Virus record (IMG/VR): IMGVR_UViG_3300021961_000162
Span: 1-46,722 of that record
Reading direction: 5' to 3' (one strand)
DNA: 46,722 bases
Origin: a virus
Shown: piece after piece, positions 88 to 42,734 of the stretch
Layout: the number at the start of each line of letters is the position of its first letter
Numbering within the stretch: position 1 is the stretch's first letter
The notes under the pieces: generated by a model
Seen by the model: only the letters and a program-made list of their open reading frames with translations
What the model was told of the DNA's origin: nothing
Database searches by the model: none
Program-made: the position numbers and the translations under genes

Positions 88-101
88 TAGGAGACAGAAC
101 A

Positions 102-716: not shown

Positions 717-724
717 TATAAATT
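717..724 (+). promoter_or_regulatory. Possible T4-type late promoter
   Basis: TATAAATT lies in the short gap between two plus-strand genes and differs from the T4 late -10 element TATAAATA at one base. It ends 25 bases before the ATG at 750, a distance typical of late leaders. The gap is very AT-rich, so a chance match is possible. Confidence 0.35.
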
Positions 725-749
725 AAATTAGCTTTATTATTTAATTGAT

Positions 750-1100
750 ATGTCAAAAAAAATTGAAAAGGGTGACTGGTGCCCTCTTATAAAAAAACCT
801 TGTGTTGGTTTAAAATGCGCTTGGTATACCAAAGTTAGGGGACTAAACCCTAATACTGGAGAAGAACTTGATCATTGGGATTGTGCAGTTGCTTGGATGC
901 CTATGATGGCTGTAGAAGTTGCACAAAAATCTAATCAGACTGGAGCGGCTGTAGAGTCATTCAGAAATGAAGTTGTAAAAGCCAATGAACAAAATCAACA
1001 ACTTTATGTAAATGCATTAAATCAAGGAGTTGTTCCTGCACAAATTACACCACTTAATCAACCAATAAATTATCTTCCCCCAGAGGAAGATCAACAATAA
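750..1100 (+). CDS. Small Cys/Trp-rich conserved protein
   Basis: A 116-residue protein with two parts. The N-terminal half has a tight set of cysteines and tryptophans: WCPLIKKPCVGLKCAWY at residues about 10-26, then WDCAVAW near residue 43. Four Cys in this spacing could bind a metal or an iron-sulfur cluster. The C-terminal half is a low-complexity, Gln/Asn-rich tail (NEQNQQLY, PPEEDQQ) that looks helical and then disordered. I recall similar small proteins in T4-like cyanophages without an assigned function. It starts at ATG 750 after a 33-base AT-rich gap, has no obvious ribosome site, and ends just before the bidirectional terminator, so it is the last gene of the plus-strand unit. Confidence 0.7.
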   Translation: MSKKIEKGDWCPLIKKPCVGLKCAWYTKVRGLNPNTGEELDHWDCAVAWMPMMAVEVAQKSNQTGAAVESFRNEVVKANEQNQQLYVNALNQGVVPAQITPLNQPINYLPPEEDQQ

Positions 1101-1116
1101 AAAAAATAAGTAATAA

Positions 1117-1142
1117 AAAACCCCCTCACAAGAGGGGGTTTT
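1117..1142. terminator. Bidirectional intrinsic terminator
   Basis: The inverted repeat CCCCCTC-ACAA-GAGGGGG (1121-1127 and 1132-1138) is extended by AAAA before and TTTT after, giving an 11-bp stem with a 4-base loop and A/T tracts on both sides. It lies between convergent genes ending at 1100 (plus) and 1153 (minus) and so should end transcription from both sides. Confidence 0.93.
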
Positions 1143-1152
1143 GTTTTGGGTA

Positions 1153-24853: not shown

Positions 24854-26449
24854 TTAGAACTCCAGTACAACTTTGATATCTTCTTTTTGGCTAGATGATC
24901 TAGGAATTGGTTGTCTATTGTCTATGTAGACAATCTCACCAGATTTTTTATTGAATTCTGCGGATCCTATTCCAGATACAAAATCAATACCCAACTGGTA
25001 TATCTTATTATTTATTGTGGTGGTTATACCGTTAAAGTTTGTATCAATGGAAAGAGCGGGTCCAATTATAGAAGAACAGTCAATTGTAGTTCCATACCCA
25101 ACATCTGGTTCAGAAGTAAACTTAATAATTTTAAATGCGGACTCACTAGAAGCTAATCCTGTTGGTTGATAATATTTCAATACACCAGTGATGGAATCCC
25201 AAGAAGCAACATATCCAATAGCGGTTGAACCTAGTCCAACTGTTTGTTTAATAATAGAATCAACACCATATGTAGTATTAGTTGTAACCCCGGACAACTT
25301 TAAGGATTCTAATCCACTAACCAAAGAAACATCCAGAACTTGAGTTGCACTATTTGGTATAGTTGGATTTTTCATTATACCAACTCTAGCGAAATCATTT
25401 CCCAAGATTATATCTGGATTACTTTCCAAAGTTTCAAATCTTGAATAAAGAAGAACTCTATAAGCTCCAAGTTCTCGGTAAACATCATAACCATGACCAC
25501 CCTTTGGAGGAATAACAACGTTAAATGAAGCCAAAGATGTGGTTCCTATTCCAGTATTTGTTAACGCATTTATTGGACCTCCGATTTCAGACCCAGGAGC
25601 TCCCTGATAAAGTTGAACAGTTCCATATGTATACCCAGAACCACCATCAGTTACAAATATTTCAGATACTTTGCCAAAAGAATCAATAGTAACTGTAGCT
25701 TTTCCACCAGCACCATCTCCAAGAATAGGTACATTTGAAAAAGAAGTTGAAATTGGTTGATATCCAGATCCCCTATCATTGATTAAGACTACTTCAACCT
25801 TTCCATCTATTGCATTATTTTTTGTAGATATACTTTCACCTTCCAGTCCCCAATTTTCTGGAACTGGAATATATTCAATTGAATCAAATTTTACTATTTC
25901 TGATGGTTTAATGGTATAAAGATATTTCCAAATATATCCATCTCCACTAGTTCCAGCAGCTCTTGGTTCCAAGTCAACGAATGTTGGTTGGTCATAAGAT
26001 GGTCTACCTTTTGGGTTTTCTGGATCCGTTCCGTTCTGTAAGCAGATATAAACCCTTAGATCTTCATTAATTACATAATAGTTTGATTCATATAATGAAG
26101 TTGATGCGGAAACGGGGGTGGTGTTATATACATTATAATCATGTCTATACATTTCAAATGTATTTCCAGCAACCCATTCAACTTTTCTTACAAGTCTCCT
26201 CACATCTTGAGGAGTTACTTGTTTCATTGCAATTATAGTTTGTTTTATTTCGTTCTCCTCTTTAAACCCATCTAAAGGTGATGGAACATTTGTATTCCAA
26301 GTAGGAGAACCTCCCGACTGAACTGAAAGAGAGTTCGGTTGGCCAATAAAAGTATAATATTTATCAGTAGTACTGGCGGCACCAGTAACATTCTTGATAA
26401 AATTCTCAGCATTCAATATTCTGAATTGATCTGATATAATTGCAGGCAT
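24854..26449 (-). CDS. gp8: Baseplate wedge protein gp8
   Basis: The C-terminus (GEIVYIDNRQPIPRSSSQKEDIKVVLEF) aligns by eye with the T4 gp8 end (GEMIYMENRPPI...EEINILFTF). The N-terminal half has the expected YTFIGQP..W, VRRLVRKVEWVAG, VYICLQN and GDGYIWKYLYTI..EIVKFDSIEYIPVP blocks. In T4, two gp8 copies sit in each wedge and contact gp7 and gp10. This protein has 531 residues against 334 in T4; much of the extra length lies in the middle, where two GxGY units (NDRGSGYQP, TDGGSGYTYG) have been added. Start ATG 26449 follows a NATAAATA element by 20 bases; no strong ribosome site is seen. Confidence 0.93.
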   Translation of the reverse strand: MPAIISDQFRILNAENFIKNVTGAASTTDKYYTFIGQPNSLSVQSGGSPTWNTNVPSPLDGFKEENEIKQTIIAMKQVTPQDVRRLVRKVEWVAGNTFEMYRHDYNVYNTTPVSASTSLYESNYYVINEDLRVYICLQNGTDPENPKGRPSYDQPTFVDLEPRAAGTSGDGYIWKYLYTIKPSEIVKFDSIEYIPVPENWGLEGESISTKNNAIDGKVEVVLINDRGSGYQPISTSFSNVPILGDGAGGKATVTIDSFGKVSEIFVTDGGSGYTYGTVQLYQGAPGSEIGGPINALTNTGIGTTSLASFNVVIPPKGGHGYDVYRELGAYRVLLYSRFETLESNPDIILGNDFARVGIMKNPTIPNSATQVLDVSLVSGLESLKLSGVTTNTTYGVDSIIKQTVGLGSTAIGYVASWDSITGVLKYYQPTGLASSESAFKIIKFTSEPDVGYGTTIDCSSIIGPALSIDTNFNGITTTINNKIYQLGIDFVSGIGSAEFNKKSGEIVYIDNRQPIPRSSSQKEDIKVVLEF

Positions 26450-26483: not shown

Positions 26484-29400
26484 TTACAAACCTCTTGTTC
26501 TAAAGATTTGTGGATTGGTTGAAATTCCAGTTAGTCCGCCATTATTATAAACTTCAAATGATTTTGGATCACTGAGTATTCTATTCTGGAAATCATAGAT
26601 CTTAGACCAAGAGTATCTTCCATAGAAGTTATTAGTTCCAATTCCAGTATCAGATTCACCTCTTGCATATACATTTACATAATATGGTGGAGTTGAATTT
26701 GGAGCAGGAGCAAAGTTACAAGTTACAGTAACTATTCCTAAAGATGGTGATGTTACATTTTCAACTCTATAGACTCCATCCAAGAAGGAAACTGCTGTTC
26801 CAACAACAGAAGTTGGATAATTCGTCATTCCTCCCAAAGAGGTTGTTATTCCAGTTAGAGCATGACCAACTTGAACATTACTGTCAGTAATTACAAAGTA
26901 ATCACCTTTTGAAAGTTGACTATATGTTACTCCATAATTATTGAGGGCAGAATATCCAACACCAAGGGTACTGTTATCATAAGTCTCCGATTGAAGAATA
27001 AAATCAATCTTTGGAGTGACTGTACCGAATCCAGGAGTACCAGCAATGAAGGTGTTTATTCCTATAATTGTACCAAAATCTCCTACAACTTTAAATGATA
27101 CTATTTTTTCAGTTTTTGATGGATCTGGTTCAATTAGTACCGATGGTGGATTTTCTTCAGTATATCCAAATCCACCATTAATGATGTTAATTGAAGTAAC
27201 GATGCCATTTGTTACGGAGGCCTCTGCTGTAGCTCTGTTCAATATAGGATCTGAATAAATTGCAGTTCCTGCAGAACCAACAGCCAAATACCTACCCTCA
27301 AGACCAATGTTATCTTCAAATATGATATTATTTAAAGTATTATATTGAAGTGTTTCTCTATAGATCCAATTAGAAAGATCAAAAGAATAATATAGATTTC
27401 CAGCGGAGGTTAAAATTACATAGAAGTCTTTAAAGTAGATATCAATAATATCTTCTACTACATTATTTCCTATAGATTCAAAAGAAGATGGTCCGTTAGA
27501 TCTAAGTATTACTCCACCATTACCAACAACAATAAATCTACCATCAACAGAAATAATTTTATTAAGATTTTGTGCAACTGGACTACTTAAAGATTCCCAA
27601 ACTTGATTGTTAACAGAACCCAATATTGTTCCGTTATTAGCCACTGCAACTATCTTAGTGTTGTCAGAAGTAACATCATTAATTCTTTGAAGAGTTCCAG
27701 AGAATCTACTTGTCAAAACAGTAGTTCCTATTCCAACTCCACCAAATATTGATCCGGCAGCACCAACAACTGTCCAAGTATCAAAATATGGGGAATAGTG
27801 AGCTCCAAAAAGATCACCTGTATAAGAACTTCCCACTCTATTAATAACTCCAAGACCAGGAACAATTACTTCTTCAACCAGTGACAATTGGTTCCAAGAT
27901 CCAATTGTTAAACCATATCCGATAGACTTAGTTGCTACTGCATACTCACCTACCGCCATAAAGATATTTGTTCCACCACAAGATATAGCGTTAAATCCAA
28001 TTGTTCCCGCATATCCCACATCACCATAGTACCAATCAGATCCAGTTTCACTAAATGCATAAATGGAACTTGATCCTACAGAAACAAATACATTACCATA
28101 GTCAACGGAAGACAAATCATATGCGCTAGTAAGTCCAGTAGAATAAGTCCAATTTTTTATAGGATCTTTTCTAGTAATAGCACTCTGAGAAATTGTAACT
28201 GTTGGATTATTAGTATAAGCATAACCAACACCAGAATCATTCAAAATTAATGAAGATACTGTGGAAGCACTAGAAACTACTGATGTTGATAGAGCTGGTG
28301 AAGTTTCTCTAGTCTCAGTTACTATAATGTCTCTGAGATTTTCTGTTAGAGCATCAACCTCGGTAAATATTGGGAATGCATTATCAACATAAATCTCAGT
28401 ATCACTCGTTTCTAACTTTTTGATCAATTTTGCTGAAGGTCTAATAATACTAGACAAACTAGGTCTAGCTTTGGAATATAATGATCCATTTATAACTCTA
28501 TCTTGTTTTTGTTTTCTCCATCTAAGAGGTCTGAATTTAGTCGGATCAGTATCAATACCAACACTACTATAAGTGAAAGTATCAAATTGATCAGAAGCAA
28601 CTATTTTTTTAACTACTCTTTCAAATTGTGTGGTATCCAATAAATCATTACGATTTTCAACGATTGTAATTAAATCACCTTCCTTAATTGTTTTTGGTGG
28701 TTGAATTTCTTCAACATCTAAAGAAGAACCTCTATAATAGAATATAGAACATTTTGAGTCAGCTTTTGGAGATTCTCTAAATGAAATTCTAGATCCAAAA
28801 TAAGTATAAGAATCTCCAGGAATCTGTAATATATTGTTTATATAAACAAATATATTATTTGTAATGTCTAAATCTGACCCCTGTTCTGTTCTCAAACTCA
28901 ATATCTCTTTAACGCCACTAATAGTTACGGAAAGAGTAAACTTCTTCCTAAATCCATTGAAAGAAGGCGAGATATCATCAAATTTTATAAACTGTCCAGG
29001 ATAGAATCCAGCAAACTTATCTGTTTGTACTTCTTTGACCGTAAATGTAGCAGATTCAAATCCTCTAAAACTTACTATTCCAGACTGAGTGTAGTAATGT
29101 GTTATTGTTGATCCAGCCGAAAGGAATGTAAATTCATTTGTGGATCCAATTCCAATAACTCTGAATTCATAAGCACCGTCAGTGCTTGCATCTGGGAATC
29201 TAAGAACTCTTTGTACTGTTGGAACTTTCTTAGCATATCCACCACCATTATAATAATGGACAATTGTAGAAATTCCTGCAAGGAACTCAAACTCTGTAGA
29301 ACTATTGACAGAAGTTACAGTAAATGTATATCCATATTCAGAAGTTCCATCTGGGAATATAGTTGTAGTTAAACCTGCATAAGCAGAATTACATGTAAAT

Positions 29401-32400
29401 GCCAATCCAGAAAGAGTAACTTTATCACCAACTTCAAATTGGTGATCAGATGAAGTTGTAACTGTAGATAATCCAGTAACTTGATAATATGCAAAAGTGG
29501 TAATTCCAATTTCTGGCCAACCTTCAAAGATGTGTGGAATAGTTGAAATTCCTGCATTCATAGTAAAGGTATTCAATCCAACAGAACTTAATACAGGGAA
29601 AACTTTACCATAAGATGAAGTTCCATCTGGGAATATAGTTGTAGTAACACCAGCATGTTCTGCAGCACAAGAGAATGGTAAATTAAACAAGAATACTTCA
29701 CTACTTGTTTTATTTGCATCAACATCTGTTCTTAAAAGTCCATGTGGAGAATAAGTAACAACGGTACAAATTCCAGTAACATTGTCATAAGAGAATGTTT
29801 GTATTCCAACCTCATCGTAACCACATGTAAATGCTGCACCAGATAATCTTACATTATCATTTAACTGTAAATTATGTTCGGTAAGAGTCGTTACAGTATT
29901 GACTCCAGATGTATTATCATAAACAAAATTTACAATGTCAATTATATCAGTTCTAAATCCACTATCCTTTACTAAAAGATCTGGAATATTTAAAACGTCA
30001 CCAATTTTATATCCGACTCCAGGATTATCAACTTTGAAAGATATTACACTAGATCCTTGGCCAACAACTACTGATAATTTAGCTCCATCTCCAACTCCAC
30101 TTGTTCCAGAGGTATATCCAACTCCAAGATTACTGTATCCTGTAGGAATTCCAATGACAACTGTTGGTAAAGAAGTTGAAGTGTATCCAGATCCAGGATT
30201 AACTACAGTGAATCCTGTAATTGTACCAGAAGATCCAACAGAAGCAGTAATACTTGCACCAAATCCTATTGTTGATGCTAAACTTACAGTGGGGGGAAGT
30301 CTATATCCAGAACCAATTCCTATTAGATTTACTGAAGAAATTGTACCAGAAGCGGAAACTACAGCCTCTGCAGTAGCTACAAGTGGAACAACATATCCAA
30401 ATCCGGGATCAATGTCTAAGGTGACAATCCTTCCAGCTGATGGAGTTCCACTCAAAAATCTAAGAACATTCTCAGAAGATCCATCAACAGTATAATCTTT
30501 TGAAGATTCCTGAGCGACATTATTAATTAGTATTATAGGATTGTTGTTTATTTCACTTGCATTATTAGTATCATTGTATAACGCTTTAGTAGTTTGTCCA
30601 TTTACTCTAACAGTAAACTCAGTTGCGGCAATACCAGTAAATGCAAGAGATATATCATCCAATATTACATTTCTATCATCAACATCTGTACCATCAAATT
30701 TTCTAGAAAATACTCTACCACCAAAAATTGATCCAGTTTGAAGTCCTGTTGGTCCAATTTTTCCATATGGTGGGGTTGTAAAATAGATAGTATCTCCAAT
30801 AACATTGTAATCGCCACTTAAAACGGTCGCAGAGGACCCGACAGTATGAATACCAGGTAAAGTACCCAAGGATCCCCTTTCTACCTGTAGGAGGTCTGTT
30901 GATCCAGTGGCAACGTTAGATACTCTGAGGTACTCAGAACCAATATTAATTATATCTCCAGAGGATACAGAATTTATTCCAGAAGATACCTGAACGATCG
31001 TTGTAGTAGCAGTTGAAACAGAAGACCCCAAACCTATGGATAATGACTTATTTCTGAGTTGTGTTTGAATTACGCCATCTATTGTTATAATAGTACTTGG
31101 GTTTGGATCTTTAAATTCCAAAGAATGTGTACCCGTACCCAGAGAAGTTATATCTAAGAATATTGAAGTTGATAGACCAGAAACTCTAAAATTACTATCA
31201 TTAAGTTTATAAACAAATAACGTTTCTGGTAAAATATTTGTACCCAGTTCAGTTGGCACAAAAGTAACAGTGTCCTGTGGAGTTAACCCCCCAATGTAAG
31301 TTCCGGCAATAGAAACAATAGATGTGACTGCATATCCAGATCCACCATTTACAACATCAATAATGGATATTCTGCCGTCATTATCTCTGGACACATTAAA
31401 TAATGCGCCAGAAGAATCTTCTGAAGGAACTGAAAGATAAGCATTATTAGCTTCCGTTTGTATTCCAGTAGGAGCTGTAGTTGATACAACAAAACTCAAA
31501 TCATCAGCAGGAGTAGATCCACCAAGGTAAGTTCCAGCAATAGAAACAACATCTCCAACTGAATATCCATAACCACCACTAACTAGAGAAATTGATGTGG
31601 ATAGGGGTTGTCCCGTTACAGATGCATATGTAACTAGAACATCAAAAGTGGCTCCAAAACCACCTGTAGTAGTTACTCCAATCACATCATTAAATAATTG
31701 ATTAGTAGGCCCAGCAGGAACAAGAACGGTTGAAAGTCCAGTAATTGATGTTGTCAAATAGGTTCCATATCCATTCTCAAAAACTGCGGTTCCATCAAAA
31801 CTTCCGACATTCATAAGAATGTCTCTATTTCCTGTAGTATAAGAAGTTGTTGCTATTCCTATCGGAGAACCAGATCCATAACTATAAATTAATTCTTGTC
31901 CTGTTTGGAAATTATGATTTGGTAGTATAAATGTATTTTCACTCAATGAAACTGTAGTTGATGATGAAGATACAAACTCTCTCTTGAAGAGTGGGTAACC
32001 CTTATTTTTGAGTTTGAAAGTAGATAATCCAACAACCATTCCACCTCTGCTTGTAGATGGGAATGTTATTGTAGGAACGGAAGTTGTACCAATGCCAATT
32101 ATTGTTGTAATTATTCCAACATAACTACCAATGGCAAACCAAACATCAGCACAACAATTTTCACTATAACTTGGGCTGCAGTCAGAATCAACAATAATTC
32201 TATTGTCAAAATACTGTTGAGTAGTAACAAAACCTTCCTGTACTGTGCCTCCACTAACATAACTATGAGTTATTGTAGATACTCCTGGATTAACTACAAA
32301 AGATGTTGAGTTTATAACTTCAACTTGATATGCAAATCCTTTTGGAGATAGTGGACCATTTCCATCAGGACCATTACCTAGACTTGGGAATATAGCGGTA

Positions 32401-35400
32401 TTAATTCCACCACCAGAATCACAAGAAAATACTAAGTCTTTCAATACGACTCTATCTCCAGTAGATAACCCATGTGGAGAAGTTGTTACTATTGAAGTTT
32501 CTCCAGTAAGATTATTATATGAAGCGCTACTAATGCCAACTGAAGCTCCTAACTGGTAGGAAGTATTGACACCAACATTGTTAATAATAAATTTTGATAG
32601 TTGAATGATATAATTAAATCCAGCTATAGTTTCTTCAACCTCACCATCAACAGCATTAACAGCCCCTTCCCAATATGCTAATCCAGCTTCAACAGATCTA
32701 TTATTGGACTTATACTTTACATCATGAGATATTGCATCTACGATATATCCAACATCTCTATAACAAGTAGTTCTGTTCCAATCTGGATTAGTAGTAATTC
32801 CTGGATAAGTTGCAGTTATAAATCCAACTACTTCTTCTTGTATAAATGATTTGTTTAACTCCAGTAAATCCGAAGCGTCTGCGTATCTTCCATCTAAAGA
32901 TTGAAGGGAAGTTCCGTCAAACTGATCACTAATATCATCAATTTTTAAAACTTTGTTTGTTTTATTAACAATAAAGTTCCTTAGAGCAGGACCTTCATTA
33001 ATAAAAACTCTTTCAACAGATCCATCATCTAAAGAATCTTCTTCATAGACTACCGCAAATCCAGATTTATCCGTTATATCAACTTCATTATCTATGTTTA
33101 CAAGGAAAGTGGATGCATTTGATAATACTCTTGGTTTTAAATTAGTTGATACAGCTATACCAACGTTAACTTCGTTTTCTGTAGCTTTTGTTACGATCTC
33201 AAGATCGGAAAATTCTTTGAATCCTGATGGGTGAATGATTGATCTAACAGACTCTTTCCAAACATCATAAGGAATTTCGCTCTTAATTGAATAAGAAAAC
33301 TTTTGATAATAGAAGTTGTCCGAAATTCTTTGTTGGAAATCATTCAAAATTCCAACCGAGTTGTCTATCTGACCGATCTTATCTCTAGTTACACCAAGAG
33401 TTGAATTTAAATCAAAAGTACTAAAGGTTTCTACAGTTCCTTTTATCTTTGAATTTTCTCCAGTTAGTTTATCACCAACATTGAGTATACCGAAAGAATC
33501 TGAAACTCTCATTTGGTTAAGATCATTATCCCAACCACCTTCCATTACTGTTGCGCTGAAGGAATTAGAAGTTACTCTTTCTTTAGAAAAATATTCGGCA
33601 TCATCAGATAATACCATTTCAAAAACAGGCAAATCTTTCTTATTAACAACAAATCCTAAAGTTCTTTCGTCATCATAAGTACCAAAAGATCCAGTACTTA
33701 TTCCCGACATAGAATAAGAAACTGTATAATTATTTTCGTCAACAGATGTAACTGTAAAGAATTGATAGTCGTATGAAGAAGAATTGAAATTAGCGTTTGA
33801 TTTAGTAGATTCAGTTAATCTGCAATTTTCAATGAAAATTTCATCCCCTGGTGCGAATGGGAATACGGTTACAGTTGACCCATATCCCGACGTTATTAAT
33901 GGATTGGTATCAGAAACAGAGAGTTCTAGGGTTACTGTTGATCCCGCAACAGTAACAAAATCAATATCATATCCATTGCTGTTATAGGTTGATATAATGT
34001 TCAGTGGACTTCTAAGATCCTTCACATTTTGAATTACTTGTACTTCATTTATAGATCCACCAAAAACAGATGCCTCTAATTTTATGTAAGGATGCTCTTT
34101 GACTATTAATGTTGGAGCCTGATTGTATCCTCTTCCACCAGTTACTATTCCAACATAATCTATTGTTCTAATATCTTTTACAGAAATTACAGACGGAATA
34201 CTTAAAGAAGGTGATAAGGTTGGATCTGTTGGATAATCAAATCCATCTTTAATTCTATCAAACTCTTCAACTCTACCAATGGTTGGAGAAATTAGTTTTA
34301 AGACAGCATCTTTTCCAAGATCACTTTCTATATTTGAAACATATGGTGGCTTTGTATATCCCTTTCCTGAGAAGTTTATTCTTGTTTTTGAGATAGGTCC
34401 ATATGCAGTCTTTGAATTTGTAATATATGAAATATTTGCCGAATCATATTCAAGAAGTTCAAGATCTTTTGGAACTTCACCAACATTAATAAAAAATGTT
34501 TTTGGTCCAGAAACTGATATTGTTTGTTCGTTAGCGAATGCGTTATTTTTTATAGTTATCTTATTACTTCCAACAATATCAGTGTCAACAGAAATTTCAG
34601 TTTTTCTGACATCACTTGGACTCTTAGGAATTAAATTATAATAAAGTGGATTTGGGGTATATGGACTGTCAGTATTTACAGTGACCTTTGCGCCAGAAAA
34701 TCCTGGGGTTCCTGTTCTATTAATAGAAAATCCTTCATCAAGATTACCAGATAATTCAATTTTTTTCCTAAATTGATTATCAAGATAGAATTCCAAATTC
34801 ATATCCAAAATACTTTCATCAGAAAGATCAAACTCTAGTATTGATCCTTTAATGGCAGTAATTGCTGGATTGATCAAATGTAAATACTGAGTTGATGCTC
34901 CGGTACTTGAGAATTCAATTTTAATTTTATCATTTATATCACTTTCATAGTTACAAAGAGTTATCTTATCAAAATCATTTTTAGAAACAAAATAAGTACC
35001 GTTATTTTGAAGTCCACCTATTACTGATGATGAAATATAAACAACTTTATCACCCGTCTTTAAGTTTGAACCAGGAAGATAAATTGTATTATCATCTAGA
35101 GATACATCAGAATTTGAGAAGGATATTGGATCTGTTACGAGTTTCCTTATTTGTGGATTATATACAATTTTTACCGAATCAATCTTAACATCAGAAATGT
35201 TAAGATGCACAACATCGCCACTAACAAGGCCATGATCATCTTTTGTTGTTACTATTCCGGAGTATCTTTGGATAGATCCAGTTAGTATTGGATTCAAAGT
35301 TGTGAGTGAATGTGCAAATCCTATTGTCTCATAAGAATTAAAATCTAAGAAATAAACAGAATTTAATTGCGTACCAATACCCGTAGTACTGGTAAATCCA

Positions 35401-38400
35401 ATAGTAGACAAACCAATGTAATCTCTTCCAAGTTTTACAGCATAAACTGTTTGTCCATCAGATAATGCTATTGATGAACCAACTGAAGTATTGGTAATGT
35501 ACATGCTCGTACCACCAAATCCAACATTGTACTGTAATGGTTGTCCCGTGTAGTATGGATGATTCGGAATATAAATTGATTTTTCTGGAATAAATCTAGA
35601 TTCTATGGTACTTGTACCTATTCCGACTAAAGACCTTGTAACGCCTAAAGTTCCAACACCAACTGTTTCTTTTGGATCAAAATAAAATACACTATTGGGT
35701 GTTGTATAAAAATCGGATGGTTTTGGTAATGAGTAGGTAAATTTTGTAGGTATTAATTCAACAATATCTCCCGCAGTATGAATACCAGTATTTGATAGTC
35801 TATTTACATAAAATCCAGATTTTGTGTCAGAAACTGTAGTTATCCTCAGAACTTCGGTTCCAATACCTATGAGATCATTGGAACTAAATCCAGATACATC
35901 TTTAACTGATATGAAAGTTGAAACTCCAGTGACTACTTCTGTGTCAATATCATTTAAAAGTTCAACAGATTTATTGAAAACATTGATCGTCACAAATCCT
36001 TCAATGTTTGAAAACTGTTGATCTGAAATTGAAGAAACATATATTTTTTCATTATTTAAGAGGTTGTGTGGATCATTATTTTTAACAGTTACATTGCTTG
36101 CTGCAACATTAAAATTGATACTAGTTATTTGATCATCAATAACTGAAAATCCACTTACCTCTTTTCCACTTATTTGAGAAACTACTATATTGGCTCCAGC
36201 ACCTTCATCATTCAATGATGAAACAACTACTCTATCATCTACTTGATAATCATTTCCTGGAGAGAATATTGAAACTGATCCTATTCCAGAAGAATTTATT
36301 TTATTTACTCTGATTTCTTGTTTGAAGTTTGAAGAAACTTTATCAATTAGATCATAGAATGAATTATTTTTAGTCAAATAGTATGGACCCACATTTCTTG
36401 TTATTTGTAACTTATCAAAATCTATATTTTGAGTAAATGCAGGATCAAAATTTTCGGTTATTGGACTTCCTTTAAAGTATTGACCGACAATATATGGATA
36501 TACTGGTTTTGACTTCCTTGTAGAATCAATAGTTATAGAAGTAAAATATGCATAAGTTCCATTAGGATATTGTGGGGTGATACAATACCTTCCATTATAT
36601 TCATCAAGATCGCCAGAGCCGGTATAAACGTAATCGTCTATAAAGTATCCAGGATTAAATCCTGGTGGTCTTACGCCGGGTTCTAAATTTGGTACAAGTT
36701 CATAACTTGTTCTTATTTGTCTGACAGTTCCTCCAACAAGGGGATCATATCCATATGGTCCATAAATTGGATTTCCGTCATATGCATATCCAAGAATGGG
36801 CGAATGGACAGATCCAGAAACAACTTCTTTATTAGTTTCGGTAAAATTATCTTCAAGTTGATATCTTATTTTATTTGGAACATAAAAATGAATGTATTGT
36901 AATCCAAAATTTGGATCTTTGCTTGGATATATTAATCCCTGATCATCGGCATTAATATATGAAGATGACTTTACAGCCTGATCTATTTTCCACTCAGTAA
37001 CATCTGCTAAGAATTTAGCATTACTTCCTCTATTTTGAACAACCAGAGTGGTATCGGAGGATGCATATCCAACACCACCTTTGATGATATTAACTGATAT
37101 AACTCTACCATTTTCAACGATCGGTTCAAGTTCAGCATATTTTCCAGAACCATAAACAATAATATCGGAATCTACTCTATATCCTCTACCTTTATTAATA
37201 ATTTTAATATCATTGATAACCCCATTTAATATAATTGGTTTTAATACACATACTGAACTAATACTACCAAACCCAACCTCGGGTCTTCTGTGGAAGTTCA
37301 CTACATTGGTTGAACCATAAGAAACTCCACCATCCTCAAGATAGACATCAGATATACTACCAAAAACAAGAGGTTTTAATACAGGAGAAACTATATCAGT
37401 ACTTCCTATAGCGGATAATGATTCCACAGTTATTTGAATTGGAGGATATGAAATTGTATGTGTTCCAACTCCTATTGAATTAAATTTTACATATTTTTTC
37501 TTATTAAAATTATCCAGATTAGCAGTTAATCCAGTTCCTACCACAGAAAGTTTAAATCTATCAGAATCTAAAACTTTTACATAGTATTCAGATTCTGTAG
37601 ATAGTCCAGATATTACACTATTAGTAGTACTATAAATTACAAGTTCACCATCATGGAATCCGTGTGAAGGAGCATAAACATATGAATCAAATGTGTTGAT
37701 TCCACTAAATCCGCCCACTGTTGCTCTTGATGGGACCTTTACTGCTCTATTTGAGTATCCAGAACCACTTTCTTTAACATATACTTCGGTAATTGTATTT
37801 TTGCTCTTAAGAGTTTGGATATTGTGGAATCCGGAACTTATTCCGGTAAGATTTATTGGATTAGATTTTGAAACAGCATCAGAAAATGTGTTATATAATT
37901 TTATTTGTGTTTCACTAGTAACACCAACATAATAGTGAGATTGGTCTACAATTCCAGTAATATCTACGTTTCCATTTGAAAAATAAATTATTTCTTCAGC
38001 ATCGTCAAGGTTATGATTTTGGCTAAAAGTTATCGTATCATTAGCAAGATCAAGATCGTTCTGTGGTCTAAATCCCACAGAAATTCTTGATTTTACCAAA
38101 TTTGACTCCAAAACACACCCTGTTCCATTTCCACCACTGATATTAATTTTTGGTTTTTCTTGATATCCTATTCCAGGTGTTACTACTTTTATTCCTTTTA
38201 TATCACCAACCAAATTTACGTGAGCTTTTGCTGAAAATCCGGTTAAGTCATCTATTTGGATGGTGGGTGGATTTACAACATCATAATTAATTCCGGAATC
38301 CGTTACTTTTATAGATTCAATTGGACCATAATAAATGTTTTCATCAAAAAGTGTTGGAGACAATAACTCAACACCATTGATAAGAAGTCCAATTTCTCTA

Positions 38401-40466
38401 TTATTTGTAGCTCTTTTATTTTTATCATCAAATAAAGTTTCAGTGGAATTTAAATTAAACTTTTTGAAAATTTTCTGATTTTTTAAAGTTTTAAACTCAT
38501 ATCCATTTCTTACTATAGTTGCAGCAGTTACTCCAGGTAACAGTGAAATGTATTTTTTGGAATATACATCATTTTTACTATAGGATAATTTTACATTATT
38601 TTCATCTACTTTTGTTACAAAGAAATAACCATCTTTAATAGTTTCCAACGAAGAACTTGATGTTAAATGTAAAAATATAGAATCTCCCGTTGAGAATCCA
38701 TGATCAATTGCGGAAAATATTTCACCAGAAACTGCATTTACTTCAACTTTTGTGTCTTGACCAAAGATTTCATAGGTTGGAGCACCGGTTGACGATACGT
38801 ATAGATATTCGCCACTAAAATCAATATACGTATTCTGCACACCTGTGGGGATTGATTGCAAATTTGCAAAATAATCGGAATTGTGTTTTGTTTTTATTAT
38901 AATTTTTTTCAGTGTAACTGAATCTAATATAGAAGACTCAGGAGAAATTACTTGTACTAATATTCTACTTGAATATTTTCTGATTGTATCTCCAGTTTCA
39001 AACTCAACAGAAATTATATTAGCTTCAGATTCATTACCGAATCTATCTTTTAATATTATCTTTTCTCCCTTATAAAAAGTAACTCTATCATATAAATTAA
39101 TTCTATATTTTGTAGAGTCCTCTTGATTAATATTTTTTATATTATGATTTGTTGGTATATTATAAATCCAAGTATTAAATCTAAAGTTATCAGAAAGATC
39201 TTTACCAAATCCAGAGAGTCCAATTCTATCACCAACTCTTAAATTGGAAGTTGATGAGAAATCAACATCTTGTATGACATTAACTATTCTAAATTCAACT
39301 AAGGATGTATTTCCCAAACCGACATAGCCATAAGCAAATTTATCCTCAACAATGTCTAGTCCGTAAGTTAATGGTTTTGTTATTCCAGAAACACCCAAAA
39401 ATTGATTTATAGTAGTGTCAGTATATGTAAGTTCAATATAATCAGAATCTTCTGGTTTTATGAGTATAGTTCCGGACTTTGAAAATCCGATTGTAGAATC
39501 AACTAGAATATTATCAGAACCAACTGAAACATCTTCTAAAATTTTTGTTTTACCAGTTACCTGAAATGTTCCGGAAAAAGAAGTAGAGTCTAAAGATAAC
39601 TCATAAAAATTCTTATCGTAAATTGGTCTATATTCAACGTTAAATATTGAAGCACTTACTGTTCCTATTCCGGAAAGATTTTGATATAAAAAATTGCCCT
39701 TCAAATTAACAGGATCTGGGCCCGAAATTTTTTCTACAAGAATATTTTTTGTAATAAAATAATTATTAGCTGATGGTATAATTGTATAGTCTTGGGGTTT
39801 TATTAATTCAATATCTTTGCCATATAAAAGTTTGAATAAAATTTTATATGAACTGTCTGTTCCTTTTGCAATATAAAAATCTTTTGCTTTTGAGAGAACA
39901 TTTTGTATTGAAATGCCATTTACAAAATTCCTAGCTTCAAATCCAGGTAAAAATTCGGACTTAAATTTAGTAAAAAATTCTTGGATAAAAAGATTGCTTA
40001 AATTATATACAAAAGTTCCTAAAGAATGTTCTTCTGATGTAGTAGTAGAAAATTCTAAAAACTCGGAATTATCAAGAGATTTTATACTATCAATTCCACT
40101 AAATCCTCTAACACAACCAAAGAAAGTTGTATCATTCTTTTCTTTATAAGTTATAATTTCATTATCTATTTTTAGAAGACCATATGTTTCTGGCCAACCA
40201 ACGGTTGATGCTACTGTAATTTCAGTATCAAAGACCAACACCTCATCGGTTAAAACGGAATATGGTACAAGATTACTATAAGTAAAATTTTCAATTTTTT
40301 TATAATCTTGTAGATTTTTAGCCAAATCAATAGCACCAGACTTATGCTCTAATGAAGTATAATAAGTCTTTAAAAAGTCCTTAAAAATAGGAGATTCTTC
40401 GTTTAGATATTCTGGAATCTGTGATTCTAGAATATCATTGATGCTTACCTTCTGATTATCTGCCAT
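26484..40466 (-). CDS. gp7: Giant baseplate wedge protein gp7 homologue
   Basis: A 4,660-residue protein. Residues about 130-220 include FIQEFFTKFKSEF and DFYIAKGTDSSYKILFKLLYG, matching the late part of T4 gp7 (DFYSTKGIEASYKFLFKVLY). A second gp7 block (SIKSEIPYDVWKESV, then HPSGF) is at about 2390-2415. In T4, as I recall it, the two are about 115 residues apart; here about 2,170 residues lie between, with GxGY repeats and a YHYH-like segment (YAYDGNPIYGPYGYDP, about 1228-1243). After the second block come CYRDVGYIVDAISHDVKYK (about 2600), FPDG modules (about 2640-2750 and 3540-3800), a probable seven-bladed propeller (about 4100-4400) and a conserved-looking end (NNFYGRYSWSKIYDFQNRILS). 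gp7 is the hinge of the wedge in T4. ATG 40466 is one base after the gp6 stop. Confidence 0.87.
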   Translation of the reverse strand: MADNQKVSINDILESQIPEYLNEESPIFKDFLKTYYTSLEHKSGAIDLAKNLQDYKKIENFTYSNLVPYSVLTDEVLVFDTEITVASTVGWPETYGLLKIDNEIITYKEKNDTTFFGCVRGFSGIDSIKSLDNSEFLEFSTTTSEEHSLGTFVYNLSNLFIQEFFTKFKSEFLPGFEARNFVNGISIQNVLSKAKDFYIAKGTDSSYKILFKLLYGKDIELIKPQDYTIIPSANNYFITKNILVEKISGPDPVNLKGNFLYQNLSGIGTVSASIFNVEYRPIYDKNFYELSLDSTSFSGTFQVTGKTKILEDVSVGSDNILVDSTIGFSKSGTILIKPEDSDYIELTYTDTTINQFLGVSGITKPLTYGLDIVEDKFAYGYVGLGNTSLVEFRIVNVIQDVDFSSTSNLRVGDRIGLSGFGKDLSDNFRFNTWIYNIPTNHNIKNINQEDSTKYRINLYDRVTFYKGEKIILKDRFGNESEANIISVEFETGDTIRKYSSRILVQVISPESSILDSVTLKKIIIKTKHNSDYFANLQSIPTGVQNTYIDFSGEYLYVSSTGAPTYEIFGQDTKVEVNAVSGEIFSAIDHGFSTGDSIFLHLTSSSSLETIKDGYFFVTKVDENNVKLSYSKNDVYSKKYISLLPGVTAATIVRNGYEFKTLKNQKIFKKFNLNSTETLFDDKNKRATNNREIGLLINGVELLSPTLFDENIYYGPIESIKVTDSGINYDVVNPPTIQIDDLTGFSAKAHVNLVGDIKGIKVVTPGIGYQEKPKINISGGNGTGCVLESNLVKSRISVGFRPQNDLDLANDTITFSQNHNLDDAEEIIYFSNGNVDITGIVDQSHYYVGVTSETQIKLYNTFSDAVSKSNPINLTGISSGFHNIQTLKSKNTITEVYVKESGSGYSNRAVKVPSRATVGGFSGINTFDSYVYAPSHGFHDGELVIYSTTNSVISGLSTESEYYVKVLDSDRFKLSVVGTGLTANLDNFNKKKYVKFNSIGVGTHTISYPPIQITVESLSAIGSTDIVSPVLKPLVFGSISDVYLEDGGVSYGSTNVVNFHRRPEVGFGSISSVCVLKPIILNGVINDIKIINKGRGYRVDSDIIVYGSGKYAELEPIVENGRVISVNIIKGGVGYASSDTTLVVQNRGSNAKFLADVTEWKIDQAVKSSSYINADDQGLIYPSKDPNFGLQYIHFYVPNKIRYQLEDNFTETNKEVVSGSVHSPILGYAYDGNPIYGPYGYDPLVGGTVRQIRTSYELVPNLEPGVRPPGFNPGYFIDDYVYTGSGDLDEYNGRYCITPQYPNGTYAYFTSITIDSTRKSKPVYPYIVGQYFKGSPITENFDPAFTQNIDFDKLQITRNVGPYYLTKNNSFYDLIDKVSSNFKQEIRVNKINSSGIGSVSIFSPGNDYQVDDRVVVSSLNDEGAGANIVVSQISGKEVSGFSVIDDQITSINFNVAASNVTVKNNDPHNLLNNEKIYVSSISDQQFSNIEGFVTINVFNKSVELLNDIDTEVVTGVSTFISVKDVSGFSSNDLIGIGTEVLRITTVSDTKSGFYVNRLSNTGIHTAGDIVELIPTKFTYSLPKPSDFYTTPNSVFYFDPKETVGVGTLGVTRSLVGIGTSTIESRFIPEKSIYIPNHPYYTGQPLQYNVGFGGTSMYITNTSVGSSIALSDGQTVYAVKLGRDYIGLSTIGFTSTTGIGTQLNSVYFLDFNSYETIGFAHSLTTLNPILTGSIQRYSGIVTTKDDHGLVSGDVVHLNISDVKIDSVKIVYNPQIRKLVTDPISFSNSDVSLDDNTIYLPGSNLKTGDKVVYISSSVIGGLQNNGTYFVSKNDFDKITLCNYESDINDKIKIEFSSTGASTQYLHLINPAITAIKGSILEFDLSDESILDMNLEFYLDNQFRKKIELSGNLDEGFSINRTGTPGFSGAKVTVNTDSPYTPNPLYYNLIPKSPSDVRKTEISVDTDIVGSNKITIKNNAFANEQTISVSGPKTFFINVGEVPKDLELLEYDSANISYITNSKTAYGPISKTRINFSGKGYTKPPYVSNIESDLGKDAVLKLISPTIGRVEEFDRIKDGFDYPTDPTLSPSLSIPSVISVKDIRTIDYVGIVTGGRGYNQAPTLIVKEHPYIKLEASVFGGSINEVQVIQNVKDLRSPLNIISTYNSNGYDIDFVTVAGSTVTLELSVSDTNPLITSGYGSTVTVFPFAPGDEIFIENCRLTESTKSNANFNSSSYDYQFFTVTSVDENNYTVSYSMSGISTGSFGTYDDERTLGFVVNKKDLPVFEMVLSDDAEYFSKERVTSNSFSATVMEGGWDNDLNQMRVSDSFGILNVGDKLTGENSKIKGTVETFSTFDLNSTLGVTRDKIGQIDNSVGILNDFQQRISDNFYYQKFSYSIKSEIPYDVWKESVRSIIHPSGFKEFSDLEIVTKATENEVNVGIAVSTNLKPRVLSNASTFLVNIDNEVDITDKSGFAVVYEEDSLDDGSVERVFINEGPALRNFIVNKTNKVLKIDDISDQFDGTSLQSLDGRYADASDLLELNKSFIQEEVVGFITATYPGITTNPDWNRTTCYRDVGYIVDAISHDVKYKSNNRSVEAGLAYWEGAVNAVDGEVEETIAGFNYIIQLSKFIINNVGVNTSYQLGASVGISSASYNNLTGETSIVTTSPHGLSTGDRVVLKDLVFSCDSGGGINTAIFPSLGNGPDGNGPLSPKGFAYQVEVINSTSFVVNPGVSTITHSYVSGGTVQEGFVTTQQYFDNRIIVDSDCSPSYSENCCADVWFAIGSYVGIITTIIGIGTTSVPTITFPSTSRGGMVVGLSTFKLKNKGYPLFKREFVSSSSTTVSLSENTFILPNHNFQTGQELIYSYGSGSPIGIATTSYTTGNRDILMNVGSFDGTAVFENGYGTYLTTSITGLSTVLVPAGPTNQLFNDVIGVTTTGGFGATFDVLVTYASVTGQPLSTSISLVSGGYGYSVGDVVSIAGTYLGGSTPADDLSFVVSTTAPTGIQTEANNAYLSVPSEDSSGALFNVSRDNDGRISIIDVVNGGSGYAVTSIVSIAGTYIGGLTPQDTVTFVPTELGTNILPETLFVYKLNDSNFRVSGLSTSIFLDITSLGTGTHSLEFKDPNPSTIITIDGVIQTQLRNKSLSIGLGSSVSTATTTIVQVSSGINSVSSGDIINIGSEYLRVSNVATGSTDLLQVERGSLGTLPGIHTVGSSATVLSGDYNVIGDTIYFTTPPYGKIGPTGLQTGSIFGGRVFSRKFDGTDVDDRNVILDDISLAFTGIAATEFTVRVNGQTTKALYNDTNNASEINNNPIILINNVAQESSKDYTVDGSSENVLRFLSGTPSAGRIVTLDIDPGFGYVVPLVATAEAVVSASGTISSVNLIGIGSGYRLPPTVSLASTIGFGASITASVGSSGTITGFTVVNPGSGYTSTSLPTVVIGIPTGYSNLGVGYTSGTSGVGDGAKLSVVVGQGSSVISFKVDNPGVGYKIGDVLNIPDLLVKDSGFRTDIIDIVNFVYDNTSGVNTVTTLTEHNLQLNDNVRLSGAAFTCGYDEVGIQTFSYDNVTGICTVVTYSPHGLLRTDVDANKTSSEVFLFNLPFSCAAEHAGVTTTIFPDGTSSYGKVFPVLSSVGLNTFTMNAGISTIPHIFEGWPEIGITTFAYYQVTGLSTVTTSSDHQFEVGDKVTLSGLAFTCNSAYAGLTTTIFPDGTSEYGYTFTVTSVNSSTEFEFLAGISTIVHYYNGGGYAKKVPTVQRVLRFPDASTDGAYEFRVIGIGSTNEFTFLSAGSTITHYYTQSGIVSFRGFESATFTVKEVQTDKFAGFYPGQFIKFDDISPSFNGFRKKFTLSVTISGVKEILSLRTEQGSDLDITNNIFVYINNILQIPGDSYTYFGSRISFRESPKADSKCSIFYYRGSSLDVEEIQPPKTIKEGDLITIVENRNDLLDTTQFERVVKKIVASDQFDTFTYSSVGIDTDPTKFRPLRWRKQKQDRVINGSLYSKARPSLSSIIRPSAKLIKKLETSDTEIYVDNAFPIFTEVDALTENLRDIIVTETRETSPALSTSVVSSASTVSSLILNDSGVGYAYTNNPTVTISQSAITRKDPIKNWTYSTGLTSAYDLSSVDYGNVFVSVGSSSIYAFSETGSDWYYGDVGYAGTIGFNAISCGGTNIFMAVGEYAVATKSIGYGLTIGSWNQLSLVEEVIVPGLGVINRVGSSYTGDLFGAHYSPYFDTWTVVGAAGSIFGGVGIGTTVLTSRFSGTLQRINDVTSDNTKIVAVANNGTILGSVNNQVWESLSSPVAQNLNKIISVDGRFIVVGNGGVILRSNGPSSFESIGNNVVEDIIDIYFKDFYVILTSAGNLYYSFDLSNWIYRETLQYNTLNNIIFEDNIGLEGRYLAVGSAGTAIYSDPILNRATAEASVTNGIVTSINIINGGFGYTEENPPSVLIEPDPSKTEKIVSFKVVGDFGTIIGINTFIAGTPGFGTVTPKIDFILQSETYDNSTLGVGYSALNNYGVTYSQLSKGDYFVITDSNVQVGHALTGITTSLGGMTNYPTSVVGTAVSFLDGVYRVENVTSPSLGIVTVTCNFAPAPNSTPPYYVNVYARGESDTGIGTNNFYGRYSWSKIYDFQNRILSDPKSFEVYNNGGLTGISTNPQIFRTRGL
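27260..28170 (-). repeat. Seven propeller-like repeats near the gp7 C-terminus
   Basis: About seven units of 40-50 residues follow the pattern W..., a short loop, I.F...G.FVAVG..G.I..S. Examples are GNVFVSVGSSSIYAFS, TNIFMAVGEYAVATKS, TKIVAVANNGTILGS, GRFIVVGNGGVILRS and GRYLAVGSAGTAIYSD. This is the signature of BNR/Ycf48-type beta-propellers. Limits are approximate. Confidence 0.65.
29080..29840 (-). repeat. FPDG repeat modules inside gp7
   Basis: Encodes two full copies of AGVTTTIFPDGTS.YG...FPV/FTV...AGISTI.H and a terminal unit ending GGGYAKKVP, closely like the tail fibre. Bases 29341-29369 and 29617-29645 are identical (29 bp, 276 bp apart), and 29653-29676 equals 5711-5734 in the fibre gene. 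A third, more diverged copy lies near 32270-32540. Confidence 0.78.
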
Positions 40467-40467
40467 G

Positions 40468-42336
40468 TTATCTAGTATAATTTCCGTTTAAGTAACTGGA
40501 TGTTGGGGTGAATAATGTAGCGGATGTATTTTCACCAGAAATAATAATATCTTCAATAGTAGAGACTTTTGAATTTCTAATGTCAAATTGGAGGTAGAGA
40601 TCTTTTAATCCTACAACATCATTAGATTCCGGCACTGCCTGAACCTCAATGAATCCACTGTTTAAAGAAGATCCTGTTATATTTACCACATCCAAAAGAA
40701 TCTCTCCAGTTATATAGTTAACACTTCCGGCGTTTATTTTTACAATTACCGGAACATTATTTTCTATTTTAAAGAAGAATATTTTTCCGGTTGTGTTTGA
40801 AGTTGCCGCATCCGCCATGTATAAAGTTTCAGTGACTCCATCTATAGTAAATCCTGTAGATTTGATGGAGTATCCATCTTTCTTGATGTGAATTTTATTC
40901 CCGAAACAAAGTTCGTAAGTTGCTAAAGTATTGAATTCTGGTGATAAATCCCTTCTCATTCTAACTTTAGTAATATTTGATGTTATTGCAACATCAGATT
41001 CATCTATGAGTGCATTAACTTTACTAAACTTGAATCTACCACCAAAACTATTAAGATCAACTGAAGAAGCATATTTTGTTAATGTATTTGTAACTTTAGT
41101 TCTTATCGTTTCAGAACTTGAAGATTTGTTTACATCGTAGTAAATTGTTGCTTCAACTTCAACATATAGATAGGACAAATCAATTATTTCGGGTTTAATA
41201 CCAGCAATAGAATACTGTTTAAGTGTTCTTAGAATATCAGATTTAGTAACGGCGGACAAAAATGTACCATTTCTTGGTTTAATTGATATAAAAACTTTAC
41301 CATAATCGGGTGGATCAAGTTCTTCACCACCATATGATGTAACCGACTCAACATTTGGATAAATGTATGGTATTAACGCTTTGTAGTCATTTGCAGTAAC
41401 TGCTCTAAATTGAGAAGCATAAACTCTAGGAGCCAAATATTTGATTGAATCTATTGATTCAACTTCATCTCCATTTTGTGAAGGAACTTCAGTTGTTAAT
41501 AAAGATATTCCAGAAGTTATATCTCTCTCATTATTATCTTTTAAAATGCCCGAGAAGGTAAAGTTTGAAGCACCATTTCCAAAAGTACCATTTGTAACAA
41601 TATATGTTACTGTGACCACACTACCTGATTTAGGTTTTTTACCAAGAATGCCATCACCAAATCTAATTTCATATTTCTGATCACTAACTTCTTGAATCAA
41701 AAATATTCTTGTATTTTTATCAATATTTAAAATATTTGAATAAGATGTATACTCCTCAGTTACTTGATCCCTAACAGATACTCTAATGGTTGTAGTATCA
41801 ATGTTTGCATTAGGGAGAATAAATCTCTGATTTGGTTGAGAATCGTCTATTGTAAACGTACTAGTTAGAAAAACTCCTTCATAAATTTCCAGTTGATCAA
41901 ATCTTGCAATTCCGTTACTATCAACTGGTACGGTTACTGATTCTGGTATGGAGAATATATAATTGCCGTCTACAACTGCACCTAAAGCAACTTGACCTGG
42001 ATTGAGTTTGACTGTTCTTGAGTCTGTTTGACTCATATCAACAGTAAAACTTACTTTTGCTTTGGAAGATCTTCTAGATCTAGGTACATATCCAATATTT
42101 CTGGAAAGAGAAACAACATTTTCTCTCAGAGTTGCACTATCCAAAAATACTTCATTAACCGCCATATTTGTATTGAAGGCGGTAATATAACTATTATACG
42201 CTAAAATATCAATCAGTGCAGAAAAGTTGGACCCCTCAAAATCAAAGTCGGTGAAATCACTATTTGATCTCAAATAGTCTTTGATCTGGGTTCTTAAATT
42301 CTGAAAATCTAGGTTAGTAAACTGATTGAATGCCAT
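40468..42336 (-). CDS. gp6: Baseplate wedge protein gp6 (baseplate J-like)
   Basis: A 622-residue protein, close to the 660 of T4 gp6. The N-terminus (NLRTQIKDYLRSNSDFTDFDFEGSN, then LIDILAYNSYITAFNTNMAVNEVFLDSATLRENVVSLSRNIGYVPRSRRS) is the classic wedge start of gp6 and baseplate J proteins. The middle has YEIRFGDGILGKKPKSGSVVTVTY, the J-domain core. The C-terminus is a beta region. In T4, 12 copies of gp6 form the inner ring that holds wedges together and clamps gp25 and gp53. It shares one base with the gp25 stop (TAATG) and leads into gp7 with one base between (TAA-C-ATG), so gp25, gp6 and gp7 form a coupled cassette. All key blocks look intact. Confidence 0.94.
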   Translation of the reverse strand: MAFNQFTNLDFQNLRTQIKDYLRSNSDFTDFDFEGSNFSALIDILAYNSYITAFNTNMAVNEVFLDSATLRENVVSLSRNIGYVPRSRRSSKAKVSFTVDMSQTDSRTVKLNPGQVALGAVVDGNYIFSIPESVTVPVDSNGIARFDQLEIYEGVFLTSTFTIDDSQPNQRFILPNANIDTTTIRVSVRDQVTEEYTSYSNILNIDKNTRIFLIQEVSDQKYEIRFGDGILGKKPKSGSVVTVTYIVTNGTFGNGASNFTFSGILKDNNERDITSGISLLTTEVPSQNGDEVESIDSIKYLAPRVYASQFRAVTANDYKALIPYIYPNVESVTSYGGEELDPPDYGKVFISIKPRNGTFLSAVTKSDILRTLKQYSIAGIKPEIIDLSYLYVEVEATIYYDVNKSSSSETIRTKVTNTLTKYASSVDLNSFGGRFKFSKVNALIDESDVAITSNITKVRMRRDLSPEFNTLATYELCFGNKIHIKKDGYSIKSTGFTIDGVTETLYMADAATSNTTGKIFFFKIENNVPVIVKINAGSVNYITGEILLDVVNITGSSLNSGFIEVQAVPESNDVVGLKDLYLQFDIRNSKVSTIEDIIISGENTSATLFTPTSSYLNGNYTR

Positions 42337-42734
42337 TAGACTCTAGTTGGTTGTAAAATGAAATCTATAGATTGTCGGGGAGTTGGTAAACCAACTATAT
42401 CATAAGAAATTCTTACATTTAAATCGTTTGAGTCATTTGGATATGTCACCAATACAGATGACCTTGCAATTCTTGGCTCATAATTTTTAAGTAAATTATC
42501 AATTTCAACCTGTAAGGAACTTGCTAATTCTGGTGTTTGAAGTTCAAACATAGAATTATTTACTTTAGTTCCAAGAAGACGATTGTAAAATCTTTCACCT
42601 GTTCTTGTTCTAACAAGATTAATTACAGATTTTTTGATAGCGTCTTCATTTGTAATAGCCAATACGTCACCAGTCACCGGGTTCCTCACAAAAGAGAGAC
42701 TTATATCTTTGAATTTGCGAGAAACCCTTATCAT
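42336..42734 (-). CDS. gp25: Baseplate wedge protein gp25
   Basis: 132 residues, the same length as T4 gp25. It shows FKDISLSFVRNPVTGDVLAITNEDAIKKSVINLVRTRTGERFYNRLLGTKV, the diagnostic GPW/gp25 pattern in which the conserved TRTGER(F) segment forms the core. It belongs to the wedge, binds gp6 and gp53, and marks where the contractile sheath begins to polymerise. It stands first in the wedge cassette, with a NATAAATA element 16 bases upstream of the ATG and the gp6 start overlapping its stop. There is no lysozyme-like active site, in keeping with the family's structural role. Confidence 0.96.
   Translation of the reverse strand: MIRVSRKFKDISLSFVRNPVTGDVLAITNEDAIKKSVINLVRTRTGERFYNRLLGTKVNNSMFELQTPELASSLQVEIDNLLKNYEPRIARSSVLVTYPNDSNDLNVRISYDIVGLPTPRQSIDFILQPTRV

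Follow-up and report, generated by a model that had tools for sequence, protein, structure and literature searches.

A 4,660-residue gp7 baseplate wedge protein of a T4-like marine cyanophage carries an insert of about 2,050 residues within its core

Introduction

The (gp6)2-gp7 unit has been described as a conserved scaffold of contractile systems (PMC10457771). In phage T4, gp7 is a monomer present in six copies per tail, in the wedge with gp6 (PMC3004832). In phage XM1, the 242-residue gp17 is the gp7 ortholog according to the authors, and six tail spikes are attached to its unresolved loop 80–106 and another six to its C-terminal region (PMC10457771).

For cyanophages the record is divided. 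According to PMC7029224, cyano- and pelagimyophages lack T4 gp7, which VrlC apparently replaces; PMC3037559 places gp7 among the non-cyanophage core genes, many of whose functions are expected as divergent cyanophage copies; and the shared morphogenesis gene list in PMC2993671 omits 7. Giant gp7s are nevertheless already annotated in cyanophage records. The 6,619-residue, 724 kDa 'baseplate wedge initiator' S-SZBM1_208 was represented by 71 peptides in CsCl-purified particles (PMC9146016), and the protein in the gp7 slot of S-CREM2 (1,937 residues by coordinates; matched by slot alone) was detected in virions (PMC10665884). We found no description of a split gp7 core in the literature searched (subscription papers, bioRxiv and supplements lay outside the search), which is no proof of novelty.

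Results

The DNA analysed here, referred to as the window, is a 46,722-nucleotide virus record (IMGVR_UViG_3300021961_000162); coordinates written with two dots lie on its minus strand. Positions 26484..40466 translate as one open reading frame of 4,660 residues with zero internal stops and a predicted mass of 505 kDa. It matches PHROG 2885 'baseplate wedge subunit' (E 0), the best stretch, residues 4–2526, being core plus insert. The gene order is gp25 (42336..42734; PHROG 261, E 1e-45), gp6 (40468..42336; PHROG 219, E 7e-201), the giant ORF and gp8 (24854..26449; PHROG 438, E 3e-159), so that the ORF occupies the slot between gp6 and gp8. The gp8 product has 531 residues, versus 334 in T4, and carries at residues 216–287 one copy of a module that we call GSGY (GSGY, EIIY and HGL are our own module labels). 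Beyond gp8 lie a 2,502-residue DUF4815 protein (17339..24847), whose slot is labelled VrlC or structural protein in relatives, and a 2,663-residue fibre protein (1153–9144) with an N-terminal Mtd_N domain and a C-terminal S74 chaperone domain. A 1,798-residue protein at 9188–14584, repetitive by eye, had a PHROG of unknown function as its sole match. A plus-strand ORF of 204 residues at 102–716 resembles tail fibre assembly proteins; gp25, gp6, gp7, gp8 and the fibre gene are all encoded on the other strand. The phage is T4-like and belongs to the marine cyanophage group (Kyanoviridae-like), with S-SSM7 and S-SCSM2R as nearest named relatives. Megablast of the gp7 gene against phages gave nothing beyond 49 matching bases, present in two records from a single phage.

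Two sequence blocks were located by comparison with T4 gp7 (NC_000866): block 1, DFYIAKGTDSSYKILFKLLY, at residues 196–215 (39822..39881), and block 2, IKSEIPYDVWKESVRSIIHPSGF, at residues 2394–2416 (33219..33287). In T4 gp7 they lie at 733–752 and 866–888. Thus 2,178 residues separate them in the window versus 113 in T4, and 2,244 residues follow block 2 versus 144 in T4. A preliminary description made from the window's sequence had placed both blocks in these regions of a gp7 of about 0.5 MDa retaining the gp6–gp8 slot and had put the T4 spacing at about 115 residues; all of this agrees with the comparison, the computed mass and the PHROG matches to gp6 and gp8.

The assignment was examined with profiles built from 87 short forms, the giants and the T4 group being left out. 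These matched the window at residues 14–60 (3e-7), 160–224 (6e-11) and 2365–2421 (4e-16), so that both segments proposed earlier as gp7 do match gp7 profiles, and matched T4 gp7 at 652–759 (1e-10) and weakly at 865–889 (0.017); the best of 200 shuffled controls reached 0.7 and 0.5. Iterated profiles built without the T4 group matched T4 gp7 at 648–759 (3e-12) and 866–890 (2e-4) and the window at 9–63, 153–226 and 2380–2421 (best E of reversed and shuffled controls, 0.12 and 0.17). By these profiles, window residues 9–63 and 153–226 jointly correspond to T4 gp7 648–759. Similarly, an alignment of 42 short environmental forms (A1) could be matched to that of the T4 group (A3) through core 1 and the adjoining beta domain (hhalign 98.5%, E 3.9e-15); at the end of this alignment T4 block 2 is wrongly paired with a GSGY stretch, and that part has no bearing on block 2. 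Among 177,635 PDB sequences, the best two matches to A1 are named gp7 (E 2.5e-13 and 2.7e-10), with a second stretch at block 2 that is weak taken alone (0.51 and 10). A 13-row alignment of the window's clade matched the T4 group at block 1 only (32 columns; hhalign 96.3%, E 1.7e-9). The T4-side link of block 2 (2e-4; 0.017; 0.51 and 10) thus appears weaker than that of block 1. The Pfam gp7 domains PF21428, PF21427 and PF21456 all match T4 gp7 and gave no match to the window at E up to 1; their models, we assume, were built on close T4 relatives. Phmmer with the whole window gp7 likewise returned nothing from the PDB at E up to 1, while the alignment-based search did find gp7.

A short gp7 relative from viral contigs (L072) was modelled by AF2. 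The model is moderate (pLDDT 75, pTM 0.51), with the first helices of low confidence (residues 41–60 below 50). At an E cut-off of 0.001, Foldseek gave three matches to it and no others, namely chains of 9f4a, 5iv5 and 5hx2 (1e-7, 1e-6 and 2e-5) of 1,004–1,031 residues; these entries hold gp7 according to the PDB sequence search (5hx2_A is so named). VIA-align placed model residues 1–363 on T4 about 642–886 (Z 9.8, 9.7 and 9.1). The rmsd of the superposition with T4 gp7, 19.5–20.9 Å, means that the two match domain by domain only.

We conclude from the split profile matches with their controls, the gp6–gp8 slot, the fold match of the short relative and the short relatives themselves that the window protein is gp7. 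The same evidence, from independent profiles with shuffled and reversed controls, refutes the view that the block matches arose by chance in an unrelated giant adhesin or exoprotein. Much of the chain does consist of adhesin-like beta modules, and the gp7 of S-SCSM2R (L048:16001-31519; 5,172 residues) is annotated as 'large exoprotein', heme utilization or adhesion; even so, we give this view practically no chance.

The core runs through the window protein in the following order. Core part 1a (residues 9–63; 40278..40442; profile E 1e-15, matched also by the short-form-only profile) is the helical start of the T4 core. A site-1 insert follows (64–152; 40011..40277; 99 net extra residues), with a small beta module, EIIY, at 72–124 (E 8e-25; profile seed from this site). 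Core part 1b (153–226; 39789..40010; E 2e-22) contains block 1 and leads into a beta-base domain (227–306; 39549..39788; profile at 206–306, E 1e-32, seed from the window), which aligns with T4 domain V (Pfam: 766–861) in the A1–A3 comparison. Then comes the giant insert of 2,050 residues (307–2356; 33399..39548), bounded by the flanking core profiles, and finally core part 2 with block 2 (2357–2421; 33204..33398; E 9e-28 with a window seed, 4e-16 with the short-form-only profile). T4 gp7 (PDB 5iv5, 5hx2; 1,032 residues) has the same helical part, block 1, beta domain and block 2, and the same slot, but adds an N-terminal periphery of 640 residues, whereas in the window the core begins at residue 9. 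A core beginning near the N-terminus is also seen in Vibrio D504, BUCT608, BUCT-ZZ01 and HTVC008M; the T4 periphery is not a feature of the wider family.

These boundaries bear out a gp7 core split by a huge insertion (about 2,050–2,180 residues, depending on whether the insert or the block spacing is counted) and the C-terminal extension, expected at 2,200 residues and found at about 2,240. The proposal that the T4 part preceding block 1 was missing holds for T4 residues 1 to about 640, for which no counterpart was found, and fails for the helical start, which is present at 9–63 and 153–226. That the T4 N-terminal part had instead moved was not borne out: the one candidate compared, the C-terminal propeller described below, showed no relation to it (hhalign probability 0.1, E 0.53). 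Nor does anything show the insert to lie in a wedge 'hinge'; it follows the beta domain placed like T4 domain V.

Within the giant insert we identified one EIIY module (308–362), seven GSGY module matches, some overlapping, and one YHYH domain (PF14240; 1191–1313; 36528..36896; E 8e-21, 75.3 bits against a gathering cut-off of 25). Members of PF14240 presumably carry the Y-H-Y-H motif that the family name suggests. At this site the window has YAYF, as do 13 of 15 aligned rows, the others having YCYF and YAYH.

A set of 140 gp7 sequences was picked by N-terminal part or known slot, so that all have core 1. The sampling is biased, the environmental giants coming from a search with the window N-terminus and most short forms from a BUCT-ZZ01 search, with 80 of 203 relatives taken in one search and 80 of 265 in the alignment-query search with the propeller. 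Both cores were found in 124 of the 140 (111 distinct); the other 16 had core 1 only, 15 of them being open at a contig end. Residues between the blocks numbered 34 in one sequence (Vibrio D504), 105–106 in five (the T4 group), 200–300 in 60 and 301–700 in 22, and among giants 1,617 in one (S-PM2), 2,001–2,500 in 34 and 2,840 in one (P-SSM4). Short forms span 208–611 and giants 1,617–2,840; none of the 124 fell between 611 and 1,617, so that growth of the insert is not seen step by step. All 36 giants that have both cores carry the YHYH domain, as do five of five truncated gp7s extending over 1,200 residues beyond core 1; none of the 88 gp7s with shorter spacing has it. A tree was built from 94 distinct core sequences, five T4-group rows being left out as too gappy, and was rooted at midpoint and on D504; in it the 32 giants formed one clade (support 0.999). 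Viral contigs were also scanned with the Vibrio D504 protein, which yielded no relatives.

Of 13 giants compared with the window, 10 align with it in a single stretch of about 2,400–2,640 residues that spans core and insert, at 28–52% identity; for MED4-213, S-PM2 and P-SSM4 the alignment is limited to patches (the N-terminus, the surroundings of YHYH and of block 2, and a few minor ones). The P-SSM4 protein (L049:1501-23439; 7,312 residues) has about 600 extra residues at site 1 too. In slot, split core, YHYH domain and block spacing (2,199–2,261), the gp7-slot proteins of S-SSM7, S-SM2, P-SSM2, S-CAM9 and Bellamy resemble that of the window; they differ in the length and module content of the extension, which in S-SSM7 is a second gene. 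S-SZBM1_208, the protein detected in purified particles, also has the split core (8–65, 661–735, 716–815 and 3514–3578 in a profile scan) and YHYH; unlike the window protein, it is longer, has a site-1 insert of roughly 600 residues and shows no HGL or propeller match. Short gp7s share the core and lack YHYH: BUCT-ZZ01 (607 residues, 230 between the blocks), BUCT608 (503 and 290), HTVC008M (1,016 and 554) and Vibrio D504 (335 and 34). GSGY matches occupy the same loop as the window insert in BUCT-ZZ01 (one), BUCT608 (four) and HTVC008M (four).

Judged by these sequence comparisons, this phage is no exception in its split-core layout, which recurs in the 35 further sampled giants that have both cores. 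The preliminary description had counted the same spacing within an unrelated architecture in close relatives as evidence against gp7; the relatives share the gp7 architecture of the window protein. One might suspect that two genes were joined through an assembly or gene-calling artefact, since the 46,722-base window is a virus record made up of a single fragment. However, single-ORF gp7s of 3,884–7,312 residues with the same core order occur in nine phage records, and S-SZBM1 (6,619 residues) is likewise; these refute an artefact for the insert, and the extension is joined to block 2 in loci L148 and L182 too, which leaves it a negligible probability. The first 867 window residues match 466 records of the phage collection, and among the best 60 of these many bear the label gp7, baseplate wedge initiator or wedge subunit. 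The window gp7 adds a member to a family that is known chiefly from annotation.

The C-terminal extension (2422–4660, plus stop codon; 26484..33203) shows patchy similarity among relatives. A module profile finds HGL at 2644–2740 (32247..32537) and three further matches at 3511–3743 (29238..29936) that are alike to the fibre protein, making four in the extension against six in the fibre protein itself; gp7 tiles between 3506 and 3798 match the fibre protein at E down to 1e-31. HGL modules occur in 7 of 15 proteins scanned, those in which they were not found being S-SSM7 gp7a, S-CAM9, P-TIM68, Bellamy, S-SM2, S-PM2, HTVC008M and S-SZBM1_208. The second gp7 protein of S-SSM7, gp7b (L140:1651-10656), has 20 HGL module matches versus four in the window, despite fairly close kinship.

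Residues 4097–4412 (27231..28178) are predicted to form a beta-propeller (AF2 block means mostly 86–97; VIA Z up to 30), with matches to propellers by Foldseek and VIA. It is most likely seven-bladed, as judged by the best matches; eight-bladed designs match too. Four of the 15 proteins have it (the window, S-SCSM2R, S-SSM7 gp7b and S-CAM9). Against PDB sequences it gave no match at E up to 1, and a scan with part of the propeller found no relatives, although an alignment query of viral contigs did. Ycf48, a cyanobacterial photosystem II assembly factor, has the highest identity among the best 50 Foldseek matches (16–17%), and a host origin of the predicted propeller is possible. The absence of T4 gp7 among those best 50 matches listed carries no weight either way.

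The extension is a separate protein in some sister phages. In S-SSM7, gp7a (3,007 residues) matches window 1–3196 except about 2519–2806, gp7b (3,001 residues) matches stretches of 3160–4660, and a 340-residue gene labelled tail fiber connector lies between them; the break thus falls at window residues 3160–3196 (30879..30989). Locus L027 has the same two-gene split, and in L192 and L220 the connector precedes the C-terminal part. In L196, L203, L204, L212, L214 and L219, the C-terminal ORF is closed upstream, with similarity starting near window 2850–2880, and in L148 and L182 a single open frame runs from block 2 through to the propeller. A gene split in L019 was rejected: the ORF ends at 3,012 residues and the rest continues in another frame, which we read as a frameshift. 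Across these gene layouts the C-terminal half is modular, and whether it is one chain with the core or a second protein depends on the lineage.

These split genes would suit a gp7 that is cut after synthesis, insert and C-terminal arm becoming separate virion proteins and the wedge keeping only a small core, the C-terminal part being a gene of its own already in S-SSM7 and L027. The peptide coverage of S-SZBM1_208 (13.5%, from trypsin-digested lysates; PMC9146016) cannot show one intact chain. However, cuts at both insert ends would turn core 2 into a short fragment of its own, and the alignment of core and insert as one stretch, interrupted into patches only in MED4-213, S-PM2 and P-SSM4, also argues against such cleavage, which we consider improbable.

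Discussion

The arrangement that we consider probable is a gp7 wedge scaffold in which the two core halves are joined and the insert and extension form peripheral arms. Cores 1 and 2 would fold together and join the gp6 dimer as in the T4 (gp6)2-gp7 unit, the insert leaving the core as one excursion of beta modules that builds the baseplate periphery. In one lineage the insert may have grown as GSGY-type beta modules, together with one YHYH domain, were added to a loop that in the short relatives already carries GSGY modules. The fibre-like C-terminal extension would be a second peripheral arm, holding or forming part of the adsorption apparatus. That the two arms would be peripheral adsorption or rim structures is drawn solely from the analogy with XM1 gp17, whose loop and C-terminus both carry peripheral attachments; its loop is small (27 residues) compared with the window insert. 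If a tail holds six copies, as in T4, the gp7 share would come to about 3 MDa.

Alternatively, the insert might be a structural belt that links neighbouring wedges and stabilises the large baseplate, having no adsorption role and leaving receptor binding to the fibre proteins. The GSGY-type stretch of short forms matches residues 85–190 of the T4 sheath protein gp18 in the PDB sequence search, the GSGY module is present in gp8 as well, and the insert, unlike typical receptor-binding regions, shows conservation throughout in most of the giants compared, all of which would suit a belt. The HGL modules shared with the fibre protein and a propeller found in 4 of 15 proteins, a distribution that host-specific parts would be expected to show, speak against it, but they bear on the extension and not on the insert. 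We regard a belt as rather unlikely.

Returning to the wedge scaffold with peripheral arms, a broader reading is that a single gp7 loop became the platform for a rebuilt cyanophage baseplate periphery, in which six chains of about 0.3–0.8 MDa would carry the peripheral and host-contacting modules in cis, rather than through separate T4-like pin and fibre-socket proteins, with length tuned by module copy number. This reading we put forward only tentatively. The narrower statement, that one loop of the conserved gp7 wedge scaffold can accommodate as many as about 2,800 residues, applies across the whole clade sampled at the level of sequence, and the range of insert sizes at this loop makes a clean case of a conserved contractile-injection scaffold accepting very large additions. 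S-SSM7, S-PM2 and BUCT-ZZ01 stand out as structural targets.

The core profiles also settle the inconsistency between papers that omit cyanophage gp7 or call it absent (PMC3037559 and PMC7029224) and databases that label giant ORFs gp7. The reported absence of gp7 from cyano- and pelagimyophages (PMC7029224) is contradicted by profile matches, since HTVC008M has a 1,016-residue protein with a gp7 core two genes before its VrlC gene. This protein (L044:6838-9888) and that of Vibrio D504 (L045:8575-9582) are annotated 'head closure Hc2'. PHROG 460, which bears that name, also matches GSGY stretches of the window gp7 and gp8, and the 'Hc2' label may therefore spread via the shared module.
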